Source: a virus. From it: a stretch of 54,422 bases of DNA. The translations under genes and the position numbers were made by a program. Below, piece by piece: positions 1,656 through 54,422 of this stretch (its first letter is position 1; each line of letters starts with the position of its first letter). Where the stretch lies: positions 1-54,422 of IMG/VR virus record IMGVR_UViG_3300022745_000041. One strand, written 5' to 3'. The notes beneath the pieces were generated by a model, which saw only the letters and a list, made by a program, of their open reading frames with translations, had not been told where the DNA came from and searched no databases.

Positions 1656-1844
1656 CTACCTGTCTGACACTTCTTCCGTGTTTGATGCCCCGCGTCGCTC
1701 CTGTGCAATCCTATCACTCAGGGCGAGCATTGCTCTCACGTAAGTAGCCGCCTCATCACAGGTCATATCTTCTGCCCAATCGGAGGTCAAAACCGCAATC
1801 GCAAACGTATCAATCCTTGCTTGTTCGTTCTGCTCTGGAGACAT
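1656..1844 (-). CDS. Small hypothetical acidic protein (62 aa)
   Basis: It starts MSPEQNEQARIDTF with an AAGGAAAGAG ribosome-binding site and is the first gene after the iteron array at 1975-2058. It is helical and rich in Glu, Asp and Ala. No family is recognised. Its expression could be affected by whatever binds the array. Confidence 0.6.
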   Translation of the reverse strand: MSPEQNEQARIDTFAIAVLTSDWAEDMTCDEAATYVRAMLALSDRIAQERRGASNTEEVSDR

Positions 1845-1860: not shown

Positions 1861-1974
1861 GTAAGACCACTAAAACATACTACTAAAAACAGGAGACACT
1901 CAAGACAGGGACTAAAGAACTAAAGTCTTTTTTATTATCATTAACTCTTATTATTAAAGAACTTAACTACTGTT
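1861..1974. other. AT-rich region, candidate DNA-unwinding element
   Basis: This is a markedly AT-rich stretch, including a T-run and TTATTATCATTAACTC-type sequence, with looser copies of the ACTAAAG motif near 1908-1926. It sits directly beside the ordered array of TTTAGGCC repeats. An AT-rich stretch flanked by iterons is the classical arrangement of a theta origin. The unwinding role is inferred from base composition and position. Confidence 0.5.
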
Positions 1975-2058
1975 GGACTTTAGGCCCTTTTGTGGACTTT
2001 AGGCCGGGCCTAAAGTCTTTTCGCGATTACTTTAGGCCCTTTAGGCCCACTTTAGTCC
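1975..2058. repeat. Iteron array, putative replication origin
   Basis: At least five copies of ACTTTAGGCC are packed here in mixed orientation: 1977-1987, 1996-2005, 2007-2016 (inverted), 2029-2039 and 2039-2048 (partial). A variant ACTTTAGTCC follows at 2049-2058. Copies two and three form a near-perfect 23-bp palindrome at 1995-2017, with 11-bp arms and one central base. The array begins at the stop codon of the primase-helicase gene and abuts an AT-rich block. The repeats are seen directly; use as the origin, or as an autoregulatory operator for 1656-1844, is inferred. Confidence 0.7.
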
Positions 2059-4259
2059 TAGACCGACAACGACTGCTCTGCCAGCCGTTTGGTCCATTGG
2101 TCTCGCGAATAATACAGCACTCCGGGACGCCCACCGCTTGAGTTTTGCGGCTCAACGAACAGGCTTCCGGATTCTTGGAGCGTCGCGAGCACGTCTTTTC
2201 TTTCATTGGGTTTCAATTTCTTCAGCGGACTAGGGGAATGCAACATTTCATAACCCGTCACAATTCCCCGCTGTTCAACAAAACGTATCACCCTCAAACA
2301 ATCTCTCTCGAAATCTGACTCTGCGACATATAGGCCAACTTTCACGAGCATCATGTTCGTGAGCCAGTTAGATGTTTTGATTGCTAGGTTGACGTCGTCT
2401 AGTGTAATCGAAGGAGCATGTTGACCGCCACTCCTGGAGCACGCAAACAACAGTGCCAACTTATTGGTACGTTCTGCCGTCCGCTTCCAGATAGCGGCAC
2501 GGAAGTCGTCTTCGCCCGCCATAACCTTCTTATTGATATTGTCTCGATGTTCCGACGATCGTTCCCATGCCTCCAGCGTGTGCATCACAATCAGCGGTGT
2601 ATGTGCTTGGCCAGCCGTTCCGGCAAGGTCGCCGCTATGCGTCTTCAGGTCTAGCCAATGCGTCGCTTGGTCGAGAATGGATTGCGGCACTGATTGCTGG
2701 CTCGGTTCCTGACTGGCGACGTAGCCCCGGCCCTCGAATACCATGCACCGCCCCAGCAATCCCCCTTCGATCAACTCTCGTGTGATGTTCTCCCAAAATC
2801 CGTTCGTTGTGCATGTCCCATACAGCACAACGTTCGGGTATCGGATCGTGACTCGCTTAGTGCTGGCCAGCAATTTCGTCTTATAGAACGTTTGCGATGC
2901 CGGAAACAACGTTAGCAACTCACGCCCGACCGCCACCATGTGCGGTTGCGTCTGTGTGTTACGCATCGATACCAGCATGTGATGAATTTCGTCGATCTGA
3001 AGTAAGCAATTCGGAACTTCCGCAATGTATTTCGTGAGTCCTGAGTCTGAGCCGACATTGTCTTCGGTCAGGTCTTCTTTCTGAATCGCTGTCAGTATTT
3101 TCTTGTTCGTCATGCGTGCCGCGTCTTTACCGGCGCTGGTCTTCTCGACTCCAATCACGTAAACGTTCGGTCGTGTGTTTCGTTTATCAACAACCTTCTG
3201 ACCACAGAGTAGGCTCATCATCGCGATTGCGCCGCTCAACGCGAGTTCCGGCTGCGGGTCGTAAGCCGTGGCCAGCGTGTAATCGACGATCTCGCCAATC
3301 AGTCCTGGCGGACGGAGACAATCAGCGGGAAAGACGTTCGCGAGTTGTTTCGGATCCGGCTTGATCGGCTCAATCACTTTCGGCTGACTCAATAATCCGC
3401 TGATATCGACGTTGCTTGGCTGCTTCTCACGGTTATCAACCAGCAACCATCCTTCCGGCTTATCGCATGGTGTGGTTGCCGCTTGGTTCACTTTGCGAAC
3501 GACTTCGGATTCTGGCCAAGGAGGAAGGCAACTGAGGTTCCACTCTGTGAGATACCCCACCGCCTCCGCTTCGCTCAGATTGAATCCAGTCACGAGGCAA
3601 CGCGCCGCCCATAGCAAGCGATCGTGGCCATGCTGGCCACTAATTGAAACATCGAGCCGAGCCATATAGGAACGGATCCGTTCGTCTAACGGCGTTTGGA
3701 TTGTGTGCTGATAACTCAGTGAGCTTTTCGGAGAACTTGTTGCGGTTTGCTTTTTCTTGTGGTGTTTTGCAAATAGTCGCTGGAGTGCATCACCGGCAAC
3801 ACGTAACGCAGTCGAATCACTGATTTGGTTGCTAGTGAACGTAAAATACCGCTCATGATTGTAGACCTCGACTCCAGGCTGTTTCGATCCGTTTGTTGGC
3901 TTCTCGCCGATCTTAATTTTGTGCCATCCATTCGCTGGCCAGTCTCCTTTGCAAAAAATATGAACACCAGTTCCGCTCGGCGAAATTTCTGTGTAACTCG
4001 CGAAGTCTTCGACGATCTCTTGCGCCCAATCGGCTAACGAGCTGCCGACAATAGCCCCATCTAGGTCGATGCCGACCAATCCATCTTCTTTGCGGAACAT
4101 GAAACCGATGCGGTCGAACGCCTTCACGTCGTCAAACCGTGCCCACGTCGTCGGGTCGTTCGACCTCGCCCGCGTAATACCGTCAGCCTGAAGTGGTACT
4201 TTATTTTCATCCCAGCGCACCCAATTCGGGAGCGAGGCTAATTCTGGCGGGACGTCCAT
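2058..4259 (-). CDS. Primase-polymerase / helicase fusion (replication protein)
   Basis: A 733-residue two-domain replication protein. Residues 1-165 look like a prim-pol (AEP) domain: the metal-binding GIDLDGA motif at 63-69 and SPSGTGVH at 93-100. A helical linker (211-260, with PPWPESEVVRKVNQA) resembles the PriCT region that follows phage prim-pol domains. The C-terminal half has a Walker A-like GVEKTSAGKD at 370-379 and a Walker B-like LLQIDEI near 419-425, as in DUF3987-type primase-associated ATPases. It should prime DNA and unwind or load at the origin. No DNA polymerase gene was found, so the phage probably borrows host polymerase. The putative origin directly follows the stop codon. 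Confidence 0.85.
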   Translation of the reverse strand: MDVPPELASLPNWVRWDENKVPLQADGITRARSNDPTTWARFDDVKAFDRIGFMFRKEDGLVGIDLDGAIVGSSLADWAQEIVEDFASYTEISPSGTGVHIFCKGDWPANGWHKIKIGEKPTNGSKQPGVEVYNHERYFTFTSNQISDSTALRVAGDALQRLFAKHHKKKQTATSSPKSSLSYQHTIQTPLDERIRSYMARLDVSISGQHGHDRLLWAARCLVTGFNLSEAEAVGYLTEWNLSCLPPWPESEVVRKVNQAATTPCDKPEGWLLVDNREKQPSNVDISGLLSQPKVIEPIKPDPKQLANVFPADCLRPPGLIGEIVDYTLATAYDPQPELALSGAIAMMSLLCGQKVVDKRNTRPNVYVIGVEKTSAGKDAARMTNKKILTAIQKEDLTEDNVGSDSGLTKYIAEVPNCLLQIDEIHHMLVSMRNTQTQPHMVAVGRELLTLFPASQTFYKTKLLASTKRVTIRYPNVVLYGTCTTNGFWENITRELIEGGLLGRCMVFEGRGYVASQEPSQQSVPQSILDQATHWLDLKTHSGDLAGTAGQAHTPLIVMHTLEAWERSSEHRDNINKKVMAGEDDFRAAIWKRTAERTNKLALLFACSRSGGQHAPSITLDDVNLAIKTSNWLTNMMLVKVGLYVAESDFERDCLRVIRFVEQRGIVTGYEMLHSPSPLKKLKPNERKDVLATLQESGSLFVEPQNSSGGRPGVLYYSRDQWTKRLAEQSLSV

Positions 4260-7364: not shown

Positions 7365-7380
7365 TCCTTGAGTTAAAACG
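7365..7380. repeat. 16-bp direct repeat flanking pentapeptide cassette (copy 2)
   Basis: Identical to 6662-6677. On the minus strand it covers the last Phe codon and stop of the helicase gene plus the ribosome-binding leader of the pentapeptide gene. Confidence 0.7.
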
Positions 7381-9970
7381 GAACCTCTGCCCCAAACTGC
7401 AACCCTGCGTAATCAAACCCGCTCTCGTCATACGCTAACGCGACCGCCTCCTGTTCGTCTGCCCATGTTTCCGGAACGTCGTCAAGCTCTTGCTTGATGA
7501 TCTTGTTGAACCGGCCTTGCGGCACCACCCAAATACGATTCGCAATCGCTACGGCCCCGCGTTTCCAGAAACTAATAGCGCTATCAATTCGGGATTCGTT
7601 AAGGTCTTCTTCGAGCATGGCTTTCGATCGTTCACGCCACCATTGGTCAGCATTGCGCCGAGCAAAACCATCATGGTCTAGGCATACCCATTCGCTAATT
7701 GTCTTAACTGTCAGATTGCCGCCACCTTCTGCTAACTGGCATACATAGTCTATGCGAAGCGTGTTTGGAGCGTCAGGCGCGTTGCGTTTTTCGTGACGGC
7801 TGAACGTCGCGGACTCAACCAGATACTCTGTCGGCTCGACTTGGCTTTCAAGAATTGCTGACGTCGTGTCGGCGTTGGCTTCGTGTTTTGGTTTCGGGGG
7901 ATAGGCGAATTGACATTCCGGACAAACAACAGCGCTGATCGGAATTGCTTCTCCGCAGGCGGGACATTCCTTGGTCGGCATACCGCCGCCGGTTTCCTTC
8001 TTGGGTTTCTCTGGTGGGATTCCGTATGTTGGAGAGTCTATGGGGCCGTGACGTTTAACGTTTTCGCCGAAATCTAGGACCGCACAATCTCGCTTATCAG
8101 GATGAACTCGAAAGCCTCGCCCCACGATCTGCGCGAACAATCCCGGTGATGCTGTGGCGCGGAGAACGCAAATGCAGTCGATTTGCTTCGCGTTGAATCC
8201 GGTCGTGAGAACATCAACGTTGACGAGCCATCGCAATTGGCCGCCCTTGAATCGTTGCAGTGTGTTGGATCGTTCAATTGCTAACGTTCCGCCCGTGACC
8301 AGCCCAACGTCTTCGCCCGACAAACTGGCCAGTCTATCTGCCACATGTTCGGCATGTTTCACGCCGCTACAGAACACAAGGATTGACTTTCGGCCCGTGG
8401 CCTTTTCAATGATTTCAGCAACTGCCGCGTTAACGTTGTCGTCAGTATCGAACAGCGATTCTGCTTGTCCCGCGTCGAACTCGTGAGTTCGTGCCACGAT
8501 CTTGAGACTGCTTGTGTCAAGCTCCGACGTCATCGGCTTATTGACGATCTGGCACAGATATCCTTCGCTCATCAAACGACTAACGCTGGCCGTGTAGCAA
8601 ACTTTTGTCAGCAAGTTTTCAGGTCCGCACAGTGCGCCGGTTCCCGTGCGGAATGGAGTCGCCGTGAGTCCGCCGATAACCATGTGCGGGCACAGAGATT
8701 TCATTCCTTGGAAGAATGTACGGAATCGGCCTTCGCCATCTGGCGGCAAGAGGTGGCAATTGTGAACTAACACGCCGCCAGCAAAGTAAGAAGGGTGTCC
8801 GCTGACTTGCAGATTGTAGACAATTCGCGTGCCTTCTTGTTCGTTACGCGAATCACCTTCCAGCCAAACGAACTCAACAAAGCATCCTTCTTGATGTCCT
8901 GCTGCTTCCGGTTGCCCACATGCCCCGTTCCGTCCACTTCGATTCCAATCTTCAGTTTTTGGTTCCCGATGTCGAGCTTGTAGCAGTGCGGATATCCGTC
9001 CTTCGGCTTTAATTTCGTCGGTATCGCTACCTCTAGTTGCCAGTCCGGCCCCAAGATTTCTGCCAGTAGCGTTACTGGAACGGGAGTTGGTTTTCCGTTG
9101 CCGCCTTGAATGATCGGCTTGTGCCCTTTCCGCTTTTGCGTATCGCTGATCTTTTGTCGGACTTCCGGGCGGCTCGCTGGGTTGTCGTGGAGCTTTGCGC
9201 AGCGAATCGAGCAAAACCTCGTTCGCTCCCAGGTTCTTCGTCCCTGTATTTTCATCACCGGACTTTCTGGGGATCGGCGATAAGCCTTGGGATGAAACAT
9301 CTCGCCACATTTCAGACACAGTTTCGATATCAGCGAGATATTCGCCAACGTGTAAGGAACCAGCGGCAACCCACCCTCTTGCGGTAAAGACTGGATGATT
9401 TGAGGTACATTTGAGACGCAGTCCATTGCTTAATCCAATCGTAATAGGTTGTTTTACTGAAACACTTATGGCATCAACAACACCAACACCACTAGCGTTA
9501 TATACTACATCACCTACGCGAACGAATTCAAGACATTTATTGCCTGACGGAGTTGCGATTGGTGTGTCACCCGTAAAACATTCGTCAATTAAGCAAACAT
9601 CTCGACGTCCAAACAAATGCGACTTATCGAAACAGGACTGAATGCCCGCGAATACAACATCTTGGTCGGTATGCCGCTTGCCGAGTCCTGCGGAGTACAG
9701 CCCGACATCAACGCCCGGCATCAAGGCGCGGCACTCGTCTGCGTTCTGTTGAATCAATTCCTTCGACGGCTGTAACACCATCGCACGCCCGCCGAACGCT
9801 AAGACTTTGCGGAGCACTGCCGCTATCACGAGAGACTTCCCCGCACCGGTTGGTAAAACCACACACGGCGATTCGGTACGCATACCGGCCCATAATGCGT
9901 TAGCCGCTTCCTCTTGGTAGTACCTCAGCGTGATTGCTGATTGCTCGGAGCCGAACGGTAGCGACTGCAT
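7373..9970 (-). CDS. SF2 DEAD/DEAH-box helicase interrupted by an intein
   Basis: The precursor is 865 residues. Removing the intein (residues 131-404) leaves a 591-residue helicase. Walker A PTGAGKS is near residue 41. Motif II is rebuilt as LIDECHLLPP across the splice junction. Motif [13 protein letters not shown], motif [14 protein letters not shown] and motif [10 protein letters not shown] follow. A zinc ribbon CPACG...CPEC comes late in the protein, then a DUF7-like helical tail of unknown role. Inteins prefer such active-site motifs. Splicing is needed to restore the DEAH-type box, so the unspliced protein should be inactive. ATG 9970 follows directly on the stop of the upstream small gene (TAAATG). 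Confidence 0.9.
8759..9580 (-). mobile_element. Intein in helicase motif II (274 aa)
   Basis: The intein starts at Cys1 (codon 9580-9578, [13 protein letters not shown], block A). It has a block B with [12 protein letters not shown], a block F-like [18 protein letters not shown], and block G VLVHN with penultimate His and terminal Asn (codon 8761-8759). The next extein residue is Cys, as required for the canonical splicing reaction. Between blocks B and F the intein frame reads as a polar, low-complexity stretch (residues about 80-235) and contains no LAGLIDADG motif. That region is where a second frame encodes the homing endonuclease. Confidence 0.92.
8767..9426 (-). CDS. Homing endonuclease (Zn finger / NUMOD3 / Vsr-like) nested out of frame in the intein
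   Basis: A 219-residue protein wholly inside the intein DNA, on the same strand but in another frame (intein codons about 52-271). It has CLKC (37-40) with FCSIRC (71-76), a probable zinc finger; a NUMOD3-like [19 protein letters not shown] (86-104); and a nuclease core LDIGN (151-155), IEVDGTGH (162-169), DIKKD (177-181) and GWKVIRVT (188-195). This is the pattern of the Vsr-like EDxHD family of homing endonucleases. The stop lies 6 bases before the last intein codon. The ribosome-binding site before ATG 9426 is weak (GGAT), so internal initiation or a later start is possible. Confidence 0.85.
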   Translation of the reverse strand: MDCVSNVPQIIQSLPQEGGLPLVPYTLANISLISKLCLKCGEMFHPKAYRRSPESPVMKIQGRRTWERTRFCSIRCAKLHDNPASRPEVRQKISDTQKRKGHKPIIQGGNGKPTPVPVTLLAEILGPDWQLEVAIPTKLKPKDGYPHCYKLDIGNQKLKIGIEVDGTGHVGNRKQQDIKKDALLSSFGWKVIRVTNKKARELSTICKSADTLLTLLAAC

Positions 9971-12744: not shown

Positions 12745-13641
12745 TCAGCCTGCCTTTCTTCTTTTCTTCTCAACCCCCAACATGGCATCAACGCAATGCC
12801 ACACATGAATCTCGTCAGCCTCGCCGCTGATGAACTGGCTGAAAGAGACGCAAAAGTCCCGGAATAAATCCGGGCAATCCTCTGACGTAACTGCCGACGT
12901 GAACCACTTCTTCAGCGCCGCCATTGTCATTGTGCGGCCTGACTCGCCCGCTTCTTTGCGTGACTTATCGACGGTTGCCTTAACGTCTGCGGTCGTGACT
13001 TTCGGATCGACGTCGCCTGTTTTGAGCCACTCGTTTTCCAGCCAATTCAATTGGCCAGCATCATCCAGCGAACCAAGCTCCTCCGCAGCCGTTGAACTCA
13101 ATTTGCCTTTGGCCACGAGGTTCTTGATCGGCTCAATAAGATTTAACAGTCGTGATAACTGCCGCACTCGACTGTCGCTCATGCGGTAATGCTTACCGAT
13201 CTCGGCAGATGTCATCTTGTGGACGGATCGCATTACCTCTTGATTGGTCGCATCGTCTAACGGTGTTGTTTGTCGTCGGTGGACGTTCTCAATCACGGTT
13301 CGCAAGAATGCCTGCTTTGCATCGAGCACCTTTTCACTAACGACACTGACCCACAACGGAATCTTGTCGAGGTTGGTACGAGTCTTATTGAGCAACTCAA
13401 TCGCGGCGAACCTCGTGAAGCCACTCAGTAGAGTCAGCGTTCCGGCACTATTACGACTACAAACCACCGGCTGTTGCTGGCCAAAGACGTCGATTGACTC
13501 TGCCATTAACTCAACCGCAAGTTCATCGTTCTGGTCAACACGCCCGCGTTTCGAGCGATCTACTATCAGTTGCGATGTATCGTGCAACCGAAAAGTATCG
13601 TGCCTCTCGGCCTCATAGACTGGATTGATGGTCGGCAACAT
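12745..13641 (-). CDS. ParB-like nuclease/HTH protein
   Basis: A 298-residue protein. The N-terminal ParB-type domain has LLSGFTRFAAIELL (71-84, equivalent to the GxxRxxA box) and ENVHRRQTTPLDDA (118-131). A helix-turn-helix follows (TSAEIGKHYRMSDSRVRQL, 144-162). The C-terminal third is unassigned. ParB-like proteins in phages may segregate plasmid-like prophages or act as regulators and CTP-dependent DNA clamps. No ParA partner was found, so a regulatory or DNA-organising role is more likely. Start 13641 overlaps the preceding stop (TAATG). Confidence 0.82.
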   Translation of the reverse strand: MLPTINPVYEAERHDTFRLHDTSQLIVDRSKRGRVDQNDELAVELMAESIDVFGQQQPVVCSRNSAGTLTLLSGFTRFAAIELLNKTRTNLDKIPLWVSVVSEKVLDAKQAFLRTVIENVHRRQTTPLDDATNQEVMRSVHKMTSAEIGKHYRMSDSRVRQLSRLLNLIEPIKNLVAKGKLSSTAAEELGSLDDAGQLNWLENEWLKTGDVDPKVTTADVKATVDKSRKEAGESGRTMTMAALKKWFTSAVTSEDCPDLFRDFCVSFSQFISGEADEIHVWHCVDAMLGVEKKRRKAG

Positions 13642-15467: not shown

Positions 15468-16028
15468 TCAAATCTGCGTGAACGCCGGAACTGGATTTGG
15501 AAAGCGGCCTAGCAATTTCGCCGCGTGATTGTTGTTGTCGGCGTTAAACGGCACGCTTGTGATTGGCCTGTCGTCAGTGCATTTGCCTTGGATCATCGCG
15601 TCACGCAGCACCGTCAGCGAACTGATTGCTTTCGTGACGTGGCTCAGCCCGCTTTCAATATCCGTATCCTCGCCCTCCCACCATTGCGCAAGGTGTCTCA
15701 TCGTGGCGTCGAAATAGACGCTCGCCCGCACGCCGATCGCACGCCAGTTGTGCCGCCCGTACTTCAACCCGCCTTCCATCAAGGCTAGTCCAATCTCTTG
15801 CATGACCGGCATTGGCACGCACGACAGCGGCACTTTCGCGATGCCGATAGCGTCCTTCGGGTTCGATGGCTTTTCGACTTTGTCGTGCGTCACGGTTGTC
15901 GTGCGTATCTGCGGCGCTTCGGTTGCGGTGTAGTCGTCGTTGAGTTGCGTCACGGTGTGACTTTTTCGTCGGCTTGCCGCGATGTCTGCCGCTTCCGCGT
16001 GAATGTAGTTGATGCCTTTGGGTGTCAT
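15468..16028 (-). CDS. dATP/dGTP diphosphohydrolase-like protein (DUF5664/MazZ-type)
   Basis: A 186-residue protein whose central part (KPSNPKDAIGIAKVPLS, then LALMEGGLKYGRHNW and SGLSHVTKAISSLTVLRDA) matches the dATP/dGTP pyrophosphohydrolase family that includes MazZ. Helical Glu/Asp/His residues bind metal in this family. Such enzymes trim nucleotide pools; MazZ serves phages with 2-aminoadenine DNA. No PurZ- or DatZ-like gene and no DNA polymerase is seen, so a modified-base genome is not supported. Coupled by ATGA to the next gene upstream. Confidence 0.75.
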   Translation of the reverse strand: MTPKGINYIHAEAADIAASRRKSHTVTQLNDDYTATEAPQIRTTTVTHDKVEKPSNPKDAIGIAKVPLSCVPMPVMQEIGLALMEGGLKYGRHNWRAIGVRASVYFDATMRHLAQWWEGEDTDIESGLSHVTKAISSLTVLRDAMIQGKCTDDRPITSVPFNADNNNHAAKLLGRFPNPVPAFTQI

Positions 16029-21348: not shown

Positions 21349-22008
21349 TTAACTATTGCTGCAAGTTCCGTTGTATGTTTGACCCATAAACGTTCCTGTT
21401 GCGACAACGGTTCCCGTCAGCGTGCTATAAAGTTTGTCGTCAGTATCGCCAAACGCCGATCCATTCGCATAAGTAATGCTGCAAGCAAGCGTACATCCAG
21501 AGCATGTGTCGTTTATCATCGCCCAAAAGCCTGCAAAATAAGTCCAATCACATGCACCGGAGCAACCCCCGGAGGTCGATGATGAGCTGGACGTAGACGA
21601 GGAACTGGACGAAGATGAACTGCTGGACGAAGATGAGCTGGAAGTCGTTGTCGTGGTTGAGGTTGTGGACGACGACGATGATGACGACGAGGAACTGGAC
21701 GAAGATGAACTACTGGACGAAGATGAGCTGGAAGTCGTTGTCGTGGTTGAGGTTGTGGACGACGACGATGATGACGACGAGGAACTGGACGAAGATGAAC
21801 TGCTGGACGAAGATGAGCTGGAAGTCGTTGTCGTGGTTGAGGTTGTGGAACTTGTCGGCCCCGGCTTCTTTTGCAACAACGCTTGACCGCTCGATTCGGC
21901 CCGTGGTGCCGTTGATATCGCGTTGAAGACATCTCGCTTGAGTGCCGCGAAGCCATGCTCCAGGCGTTCCATGCGTTGCTGTTGAGTTAGTCCAGTGATG
22001 TTGTACAT
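21349..22008 (-). CDS. Mucin-like Ser/Thr-rich virion protein (219 aa)
   Basis: The N-terminus (1-50) has a helical MYNITGLTQQQRMERLEHGF start. Residues 52-147 are almost purely Ser and Thr (about 96 residues), arranged as three 30-residue blocks. A Cys-rich domain of 72 residues follows, with six cysteines and two NGS/NGT-type sites, and looks like a secreted beta domain. It starts at TAATG directly after the hub gene, so it is likely a tail-tip spike or fibre. The Ser/Thr tract is an ideal O-glycan acceptor, and two glycosyltransferase genes follow at once. Glycosylation is inferred, not shown. Confidence 0.7.
   Translation of the reverse strand: MYNITGLTQQQRMERLEHGFAALKRDVFNAISTAPRAESSGQALLQKKPGPTSSTTSTTTTTSSSSSSSSSSSSSSSSSSSSSSTTSTTTTTSSSSSSSSSSSSSSSSSSSSSSTTSTTTTTSSSSSSSSSSSSSSSSTSSSSSTSGGCSGACDWTYFAGFWAMINDTCSGCTLACSITYANGSAFGDTDDKLYSTLTGTVVATGTFMGQTYNGTCSNS
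21598..21866. repeat. Three 90-bp tandem repeats
   Basis: Blocks beginning at 21601, 21691 and 21781 are nearly identical (one base difference noted, CTGCTG/CTACTG), encoding the Ser/Thr blocks on the minus strand. Identity at the DNA level, not only in amino acids, points to recent expansion. The other strand gives acidic open frames, which are shadows. Confidence 0.9.
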
Positions 22009-49782: not shown

Positions 49783-51141
49783 TCATGCTCCTGTGTGCCA
49801 CGTGACCGGCCCTGACTGCATCACCAGCTTATTGTAAGCACCGCTTGCAGCGTCGGCTTGATCATCATGAACTCCGCTCCAACACTGCGTGAGTTCGTCT
49901 ATGAAAGCACGATTCCACGGTGCCCGCAATAGGCGGACTTGCTTTTGCTCAGTCCTGGCCTGTAGCGGACGTGCGCGAATGCTTTTCTCTTTGCTCATCG
50001 TCTCTACACGACAGCCATACTTGGCCCACCGCATGACGTTAATTTCTCCGACCGTCTTTCCAGCCCCTCCCCCTTCACGCTCAATCCATTGTTCGCATTT
50101 CAGGCCATGCTGATCGAAGTCCCGTTTCATCGTGGCTTCAATCTGAGCGTCGCGAGTTGATGCCGTCCACTGCCCGCGAACCACGTCCAGGACGTAAACA
50201 AACCCGTCTCCGCCGTCAGCCATCAACACTCCGACCGTGTAGTCACCATCTTTGCTGCTTGCCGTGTCCCAATACCGCACAACCTTCGCAATCTTGGCGG
50301 GTTCGATATCAACAATCTGGTTAATGTCGTCATGCTTGAAGAACAGCCCGCCTTCCGGAATCGGGTTCCCCATATACATGGCGGACCAAAAGTAACTACC
50401 GAGCAACGCCTTTGTTCTCAGTAGCTTATCGAATGAATGAAGCTCCGGACACAACGCCTCGCCGCGTTCGTTAATTGCTGGCAAGAGCAACTTACGAACA
50501 GGAATCCCTTGATCCTTGCAGACCTCATGCAACTGGCCAGTGAGGTCATTCACATGCCAGCGTGTCTGCATGATGATGACCGCTGAATCTTGTTGCAGTC
50601 GCGTATATGCCGACGATAGGAACTGATTCCAGACCGTCTCGCGAACCACTGCTGAACTGGCTTGCTCGTGATTGCTATATGGATCATCGAAGATGAATAG
50701 GTTTGCCCCCTTGCCTGTCGTTGACGAACTTCCACCTGTGCTCATCTCGCCGCGATGCCCCTCCACACCCCACCAGTCTGACCGCTTCAGTGATTTACTA
50801 ACACGTAGCCCTGTCGTTTCTGACATCGACGCGAAGACGTTGCGAGCTTTCGCGCCCCAGCTTGCCGCGAAGTCGCTTGCGTAACTGTTGAGGATGACCC
50901 TCCTGTCTGGCCAAAGACTCATGAGCCAAGCGGGCGTATATTTCGACATCAATTCGCTTTTGCCGTGTTGTGGCGGAACAGATACCGTCAGAATTCGGCA
51001 ATCGTCAACGCCCATGACGGTGTCAATGATTGCGTTATTGATCGCTTGCAAGTGCGGATACGGTTTCCACTGGCCACCGCTTGCGGCTTGAGCGTAACCA
51101 GCGGGCGTTGCTATTCGGCGGACGGATTCGAGGTCAAGCAT
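49783..51141 (-). CDS. Terminase large subunit (452 aa)
   Basis: Walker A PPQHGKSE (56-63), Walker B LFIFDDPY (148-155) and the RNase H-like nuclease with RYWDTASSKDGDY (289-301) and GVHDDQADA near the end. This is the typical ATPase/nuclease that cuts and pumps the DNA. It follows the putative small subunit with the 63-residue gene between. With no cos site recognised, headful packaging fits the circular assembly, but this is inferred. Confidence 0.92.
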   Translation of the reverse strand: MLDLESVRRIATPAGYAQAASGGQWKPYPHLQAINNAIIDTVMGVDDCRILTVSVPPQHGKSELMSKYTPAWLMSLWPDRRVILNSYASDFAASWGAKARNVFASMSETTGLRVSKSLKRSDWWGVEGHRGEMSTGGSSSTTGKGANLFIFDDPYSNHEQASSAVVRETVWNQFLSSAYTRLQQDSAVIIMQTRWHVNDLTGQLHEVCKDQGIPVRKLLLPAINERGEALCPELHSFDKLLRTKALLGSYFWSAMYMGNPIPEGGLFFKHDDINQIVDIEPAKIAKVVRYWDTASSKDGDYTVGVLMADGGDGFVYVLDVVRGQWTASTRDAQIEATMKRDFDQHGLKCEQWIEREGGGAGKTVGEINVMRWAKYGCRVETMSKEKSIRARPLQARTEQKQVRLLRAPWNRAFIDELTQCWSGVHDDQADAASGAYNKLVMQSGPVTWHTGA

Positions 51142-53485: not shown

Positions 53486-54422
53486 TTAACCCCTTGCGTC
53501 TAACAATTTCTTCTTGCGGATTCGTCCATGAACCGCAAAAGAAAGGCGTTCGTTGATCGTCTTCACTTTGTGCCCCGTCGCTCGCAGCAGGTCGAGCACT
53601 TGGCCGCGTGTTTTGATGCCAAACCAGTCAGCACCCTGCATGTACCATGTGCCAGTTTCGTCAAATCCCCACAGTCTCAGATTCCCGATTTGCTCGTTGT
53701 CATTGCCTTCCGAGTGCGGATAAACATCGTCAGGCACTCGCACGCTTCCGATGCTTCGCAGCCATTCGCGAGTAACCGGCTTCGCACGCTCCGTAATCTC
53801 GGCCTTCGCTGCGGCGATGGCCTCATCACGCAGGTCAAACCAGTTCTTGCCATCAACATCATCGACAAACATACCGAAGTCTTGAATCGACACGGCCTCT
53901 AAGAGAGTTATCAACCGCTCATTCACCGGCTGCGATTGCTGCTCACAAAATGCGTCAGCGATTACTGATTCACTCCAGCCAGCGACACGGTCGAACTCTT
54001 TGGTTGCGTTGGATAGCTCCAGCTTGAGCCGCTCAACTTCTTTTGCCAGTTCGTCACGCTGACCGACCAGCATCTCCGCCACGCTTGGCCCAACCTGCGA
54101 ATAGTTGTTGCCGGTTCTGATCTCATGCAGGTCCGCAAGTCCCCTATCCGAGTCGGCGGTTATTTCCGACTCAATCGCAACAGCGGCTCGCCAGTATTCG
54201 CCAAGTTCGGCTTGTTGTTTCGCGACGGTTTCCCGCAACCGTTCAAGCTCGTCGAGCATCGCGAGATAGTCGTTGTGGACCTTTGCGATCCAGTCCATGT
54301 CGTGATTGCCTGCATCAACTAAATATGCCGCATGTGTTTCGCAGATCATCTCGCCATCGCAATACACTCGCGGCGATAGCACGCACACAATTGCCTCCCA
54401 CTCGCCCTGCGTCGTCTTCGCG
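53486..54422 (-). CDS. Coiled-coil protein, C-terminal part (gene crosses contig ends)
   Basis: Continues the gene at 1-183 (total 325 residues). The middle has several coiled-coil segments (LDELERLRETVAKQQAE, KEVERLKLELSNATKEF) and the C-terminus has a globular domain (LRLWGFDETGTWYMQGA, FAVHGRIRKKKLLDARG). No family is recognised. Bases 54281-54422 repeat the first codons. Confidence 0.7.
   Translation of the reverse strand, partial: AKTTQGEWEAIVCVLSPRVYCDGEMICETHAAYLVDAGNHDMDWIAKVHNDYLAMLDELERLRETVAKQQAELGEYWRAAVAIESEITADSDRGLADLHEIRTGNNYSQVGPSVAEMLVGQRDELAKEVERLKLELSNATKEFDRVAGWSESVIADAFCEQQSQPVNERLITLLEAVSIQDFGMFVDDVDGKNWFDLRDEAIAAAKAEITERAKPVTREWLRSIGSVRVPDDVYPHSEGNDNEQIGNLRLWGFDETGTWYMQGADWFGIKTRGQVLDLLRATGHKVKTINERLSFAVHGRIRKKKLLDARG
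54281..54422. repeat. Terminal overlap, right copy
   Basis: Matches 1-142 except for three synonymous third-position differences. See the left copy. Confidence 0.9.

Follow-up and report, generated by a model that had tools for sequence, protein, structure and literature searches.

The viral genome IMGVR_UViG_3300022745_000041 (54,422 bp, analysed over its full length and called the window here) probably begins replication at a repeat array with an embedded AT-rich block, lying directly behind its primase-helicase gene. Comparative sequence analysis makes this element, at 1909–2058, a good candidate for an origin that is bound, melted and primed by the product of that gene (2058–4259, minus strand). 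The reading is supported by arrays at the same place in relatives, by an inverted two-sided layout that recurs among them and by the resemblance of the adjoining protein to self-initiating replication proteins. An earlier sequence-only reading of the window had proposed a probable origin here, and comparison with relatives strengthens that proposal.

The array comprises eight units built on one word. Four are exact copies of ACTTTAGGCC, two carry one mismatch and two are inverted copies with two mismatches. Unit 1 (ACTTTAGTCC, 2049–2058, plus strand, one mismatch) touches the stop codon of the primase-helicase gene, a TAG at 2060–2058. It is followed by unit 2 (CCTTTAGGCC, 2038–2047, plus, one mismatch) and by the exact units 3 (2029–2038, plus), 4 (2007–2016, minus, inverted), 5 (1996–2005, plus) and 6 (1977–1986, plus). 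Units 4 and 5 are partners in a 23-bp palindrome at 1995–2017. Next comes the AT-rich block, the proposed melting region (1927–1975), which is 80% AT compared with 51% in 1976–2058. On its far side stand units 7 (1917–1926, minus) and 8 (1909–1918, minus), separated by an 8-bp step and opposite in direction to most near-side units. The sequence-only reading had described at least five copies right after the stop, beside an AT-rich block and with two forming a 23-bp palindrome. All of this was borne out, and the two inverted copies beyond the block were additional to it, having been missed.

Repeats are concentrated behind the primase-helicase gene. Of the 13 CTTTAG/CTAAAG hexamers in the 54,422 bp, 8 fall at 1912–2055. 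The 300 bp 3′ of the stop reach a repeated-8-mer score of 51, against 2.4 ± 2.1 in dinucleotide shuffles, none of which (0/200) attains that value. Stronger repeat clusters exist in the genome only inside open reading frames (ORFs), namely pentapeptide repeats at about 7.0–7.2 kb and a cluster at 21.5–21.8 kb. The units follow one another at steps of 8, 60, 19, 11, 22, 9 and 11 bp and in mixed orientation. Irregular steps and mixed orientation exclude a classical plasmid iteron origin, which has regular direct repeats in helical phase.

The adjoining gene encodes a 733-residue protein with the predicted parts of a self-sufficient initiator. It matches DUF3987 in Pfam and DNA primase in PHROGs, and a full-length AlphaFold model (mean pLDDT 79.7, pTM 0.61) divides it into a primase-polymerase (prim-pol), an AAA+ motor and a winged helix, all encoded on the minus strand. 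The N-terminal prim-pol (residues 1–171, 3747–4259) is NrS-1-like by phmmer, profile and structure. phmmer matched it to NrS-1 at 8e-16 and to PDB chain 7ola, which we take to be a SaPI5 primase-helicase, at 5e-8. A profile from 53 relatives matched 7ola (‘DNA primase’) at 6.6e-56, and the predicted structure aligned with NrS-1 over 158 residues (Z 19.0, root-mean-square deviation (rmsd) 2.5). With this homologous domain present, the protein falls among the NrS-1-like primase-polymerases. The AAA+ motor (residues 318–643, 2331–3308) has a predicted MCM-like fold: in VIA-align, MCM proteins came closest, with yeast CMG chain 5 aligning over 268 residues (Z 18.3, rmsd 3.6, 15% identity). We call the motor MCM-like at the level of predicted fold only and do not claim it as an MCM. 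The C-terminal winged helix (about residues 645–718, 2106–2327), the proposed reader of the repeats, was modelled alone with a mean pLDDT of 84.7. Its structural matches are generic, none of them specific (best Foldseek E 3.5e-3, VIA Z up to 9.1), so that the predicted fold is clear but points to no particular family.

Arrays recur at the same place in relatives. We began with six annotated phages and 80 IMG/VR loci from a profile search with the primase-helicase protein. An array was called when the repeated-8-mer score of 300 bp beat all 200 dinucleotide shuffles; loci with less than 300 bp after the stop were excluded, and near-duplicates were removed before counting (5 of 72 in the first set, 41 of 145 in an enlarged one). 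The first sample of 67 loci (the window, phages and first profile matches) was collected before any relative’s array had been seen and is the less biased. In it, an array followed the stop in 22 of 67 non-redundant loci, window included, and preceded the gene in 2 of 66. The enlarged set of 104 loci drew on two later scans, one of them with a profile from array-bearing loci, and its count leans towards array bearers: 35 of 104 after the stop (window included), compared with 1 of 102 upstream of the gene and 3 of 98 in the stretch 600–900 bp past it. Presence in relatives, which the sequence-only reading had named as a check, holds for part of these loci, though the word itself differs.

The arrays share an arrangement rather than a sequence. 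In the 27 arrays with at least four copies, those on one side of the widest gap tend to face the opposite way from those on the other side (0/3000 label shuffles as strong). Steps of 8–11 bp are common, and 9 bp is the commonest (32 of 147). The layout is clearest in Achromobacter phage phiAxp-1, whose array lies at about 7.25–7.5 kb of its sequence (L173), with five copies one way, a 79-bp gap and five copies the opposite way. The window array fits the same two-sided inverted layout except for unit 4, and three loci (L042, L082, L029) depart from it with copies in one direction only. Separately, 16 of 104 loci (for example L024, L066, L081, L084 and L132) carry a word-independent element, GCTAAGTNNTTGA, in the 300 bp that follow the primase stop. 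It accounts for 22 sites, where the remaining sequence of the loci predicts 0.92, and four loci have it in both orientations. The element, which is absent from the 9 kb searched in the window, could be an origin box or a priming site that these loci share.

The repeat word changes from phage to phage. It is TGTTTTCGG in phiAxp-1, CTTTCGTCA in L016, AAATAGTAT in L035 and TATCCTATT in L024, with others elsewhere. The change is most striking between L016 and L095, which are nearest relatives by motor domain. Their proteins share 64–96% identical residues in every 50-residue bin but the last, where the figure is 42%. Their further-downstream DNA is nearly identical and their words are wholly different (CTTTCGTCAA in one, AATAGTTCAA in the other); every repeat has been replaced while the inverted pairs, the AT block and the tandem pair are kept. 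Where the motors of two loci are more than 0.8 similar, the words match in L050/L105 and L055/L134, where C-terminal similarity is 0.81–0.82, and differ in L050/L083, L083/L105 and L147/L152, where it is 0.58–0.64. A first covariation test on 19 arrays related the unit to the C-terminus given the helicase (r 0.37, 6/2000 permutations), a result that later weakened. We rely instead on a test of 27 arrays that used composition-corrected words and held both other domains constant. Words were taken as the most repeated 9-mer, a procedure that can yield poor words in AT-rich arrays such as L043. Taken together, covariation between word and C-terminus is suggestive only, and the C-terminal winged helix is the likely reader of the repeats.

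These features suggest how the origin would work. We infer that the 2058–4259 product would bind the repeats through its C-terminal winged helix, and that its MCM-like AAA+ rings would assemble on the two inverted arms. The AT block between the arms would then be melted, and the protein’s own N-terminal primase-polymerase would lay primers for a bidirectional start.

Several observations weigh against this interpretation. In the window itself, units 7 and 8 are degenerate, with two mismatches each, and unit 4 in the palindrome breaks the pattern of one direction per arm. In the enlarged set, the shuffle criterion finds no array at 69 of 104 loci. These include the Septimatrevirus phages KP1 (L010) and Kaya (L014), which have none within 300 bp after the primase gene and whose origins may lie elsewhere. 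In the 27-array test, the partial correlation of word with C-terminus is weak (r 0.134, 87/2000 permutations) and about equal to that with the N-terminus (r 0.122, 139/2000), and some pairs share a word despite unlike C-termini (L084/L109, C-terminal score 0.36). Finally, neither the window nor phiAxp-1 shows a GC-skew switch where its array lies. The sequence-only reading had offered cumulative skew as a check, and it did not point to the array: skew is negative almost throughout the window, and its detrended extremes lie at 7.7 and 46.2 kb, not at 2 kb. Skew here largely follows gene direction and decides nothing about the origin. As a separate observation, the region before the primase gene in Kaya had a high repeated-8-mer score.

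Regulation and secondary structure offer other explanations for the repeats. The sequence-only reading had also suggested an autoregulatory operator, which finds no support for the primase-helicase gene itself. The array lies 3′ of that gene, which makes autoregulation of its promoter unlikely, and in two array-bearing relatives, L020 and L023, it is met by a convergent gene confirmed as a UvrD helicase. A repressor or activator bound to the repeats could instead regulate the small genes from 1844 downwards, where an ORF of 62 residues (1656–1844, minus strand) runs in the same direction as the primase-helicase gene at the far edge of the intergenic region. We consider this unlikely. The array does sit in the leader of the gene that follows in the same direction, and it contains a perfect, operator-like palindrome. 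In a crude ORF survey of 30 array loci, the first ORF of at least 80 residues past the array has the direction of the primase-helicase gene in 19. That ORF is opposite in 11 of 30, however, the arrays of L020 and L023 sit between two gene ends, and a scan of 1500–2500 for sigma-70-like promoters and for terminators found none. It is more improbable still that a cruciform or hairpin made by the inverted copies, and not the word, is what matters. The minus strand does fold better than its shuffles (DNA −23.5 kcal/mol, z −3.48, 1/200 shuffles as good), and the plasmid pRN1 and BIP-1 have been suggested to rely on a stem-loop positioned 3′ of comparable proteins (PMC4234260). Any inverted copies fold, so the z score is not independent evidence, and it does not separate the two origin types. 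Moreover, the arrays of L042 and L082 run in one direction, and pRN1 is described as lacking iterons (PMC4234260), which are present in the window.

Packaging (pac or cos) and partition (parS-like) sites have to be weighed as well. Clustered repeats are found at sites of this kind in general, a point that counts for this explanation, and the phage encodes both a large terminase (terL, 49783–51141) and a ParB-like protein (12745–13641). Recognition of the array by the ParB-like protein or a small terminase nevertheless seems very improbable. The distance from the array is about 10.7 kb to the parB-like gene and, around the closed map, about 5.2 kb to terL. The phiAxp-1 array, after the primase gene, is about 11.6 kb from terL in a genome with no annotated ParB. 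A tblastn search with the window ParB found no match in the other loci, which are mostly pieces of 4–10 kb.

The proposed origin combines traits of several known systems. Phage P4 alpha unites primase, helicase and origin binder in one protein. The window protein resembles it as a single multi-role protein, but the P4 primase is of the Toprim type (PMC4234260, where P4 is compared with pRN1) and that of the window is an archaeo-eukaryotic primase (AEP) of the NrS-1 kind. ORF904 of the crenarchaeal plasmid pRN1 is a single protein with an AEP primase, a helicase and a winged helix at its C-terminus, and the pRN1 origin likewise lies 3′ of the encoding gene; that origin, however, is a stem-loop of about 100 nt described as having no iterons (PMC4234260), whereas repeats dominate in the window. 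NrS-1 polymerase shares the homologous N-terminal prim-pol, and the full protein is a ring-forming prim-pol/helicase. It differs in having a Tail (619–718) of novel fold and a putative origin with two 8-nt recognition sites (PMC7102993), in place of which the window has a winged helix and an array. In SCCmec, the C-terminal domain of the Cch2 helicase binds short direct repeats downstream of its operon, a putative origin (PMC7581432), but priming there falls to a complex of its own, CCPol-MP, and the whole element is a cassette in the chromosome.

The closest likeness is to satellites. In Staphylococcus aureus pathogenicity islands (SaPIs), the C-terminal domain of Rep acts on iterons directly downstream of the rep gene (PMC7581432). 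In phage-inducible chromosomal islands (PICIs), two iteron sets flank an AT-rich region, and a rep-ori plasmid test in E. coli has been described (PMC6092414). The window array likewise stands immediately 3′ of the putative initiator gene, with its first unit touching the stop codon. Units 1–6, the 80% AT block and the degenerate units 7–8 correspond to two sets flanking an AT region. The window protein has a predicted C-terminal winged helix as its putative iteron binder, and its prim-pol profile matches PDB chain 7ola. The differences are that the word is phage-specific, that the helicase belongs to the DUF3987 family and that the window is a complete tailed phage with its own terminase rather than a satellite. 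A PICI, being a phage-dependent satellite, is ruled out: the genome is closed at 54 kb and carries a large terminase gene and head genes of its own. We found no published description of an array behind DUF3987 phage primases in the open-access literature.

The origin, as we read it, is a variant of the bipartite PICI-like satellite type, carried by complete tailed phages and built on a fast-changing word. A satellite-type origin in tailed-phage genomes would link satellites with phages. In many phages not yet cultivated, the unannotated intergenic stretches that follow primase-helicase genes would become origins that can be predicted and tested. A broader proposal, possible but doubtful, is that this is a widespread class of tailed-phage origins organized as a lock-and-key cassette: a self-initiating prim-pol/MCM-like protein, inverted arms of a word and a melting block, with word and winged helix replaced wholesale between close relatives. 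If so, each phage would have a private replicon identity, possibly avoiding cross-recognition by relatives or satellites, and the PICI-type origin would not be peculiar to satellites. Co-change of word and winged helix would make origin specificity testable by domain swaps.

The window represents a complete tailed phage whose main genes lie on the minus strand. Its terminal 142 bases (54281–54422) repeat the first 142 (1–142) with 3 differences, an overlap that we take as the sign of a closed genome, some 54.28 kb long; the mismatches would reflect strain variation or an assembly flaw. No close relative was found by a single-protein scan of viral contigs or by a genome-contig profile scan, the array word in palindromic arrangement had no match in viral contigs, and a tRNA was the sole match in an Rfam scan of the window. 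An eight-copy imperfect repeat family spans 21557–21849 inside an ORF at 21349–22008, which has weak Pfam matches only. A dATP/dGTP diphosphohydrolase N-terminal domain (PF18909) is encoded at 15468–16028 (minus strand). A helicase gene at 7373–9970 (minus strand) contains an intein-like segment (PF14890, residues 164–404, window 8759–9481) scoring just below the cut-off. Wholly inside this segment, in another reading frame, lies a 219-residue ORF with a DUF559 nuclease-like domain (8767–9426, minus strand), which may encode a homing endonuclease carried within an intein in a frame of its own.
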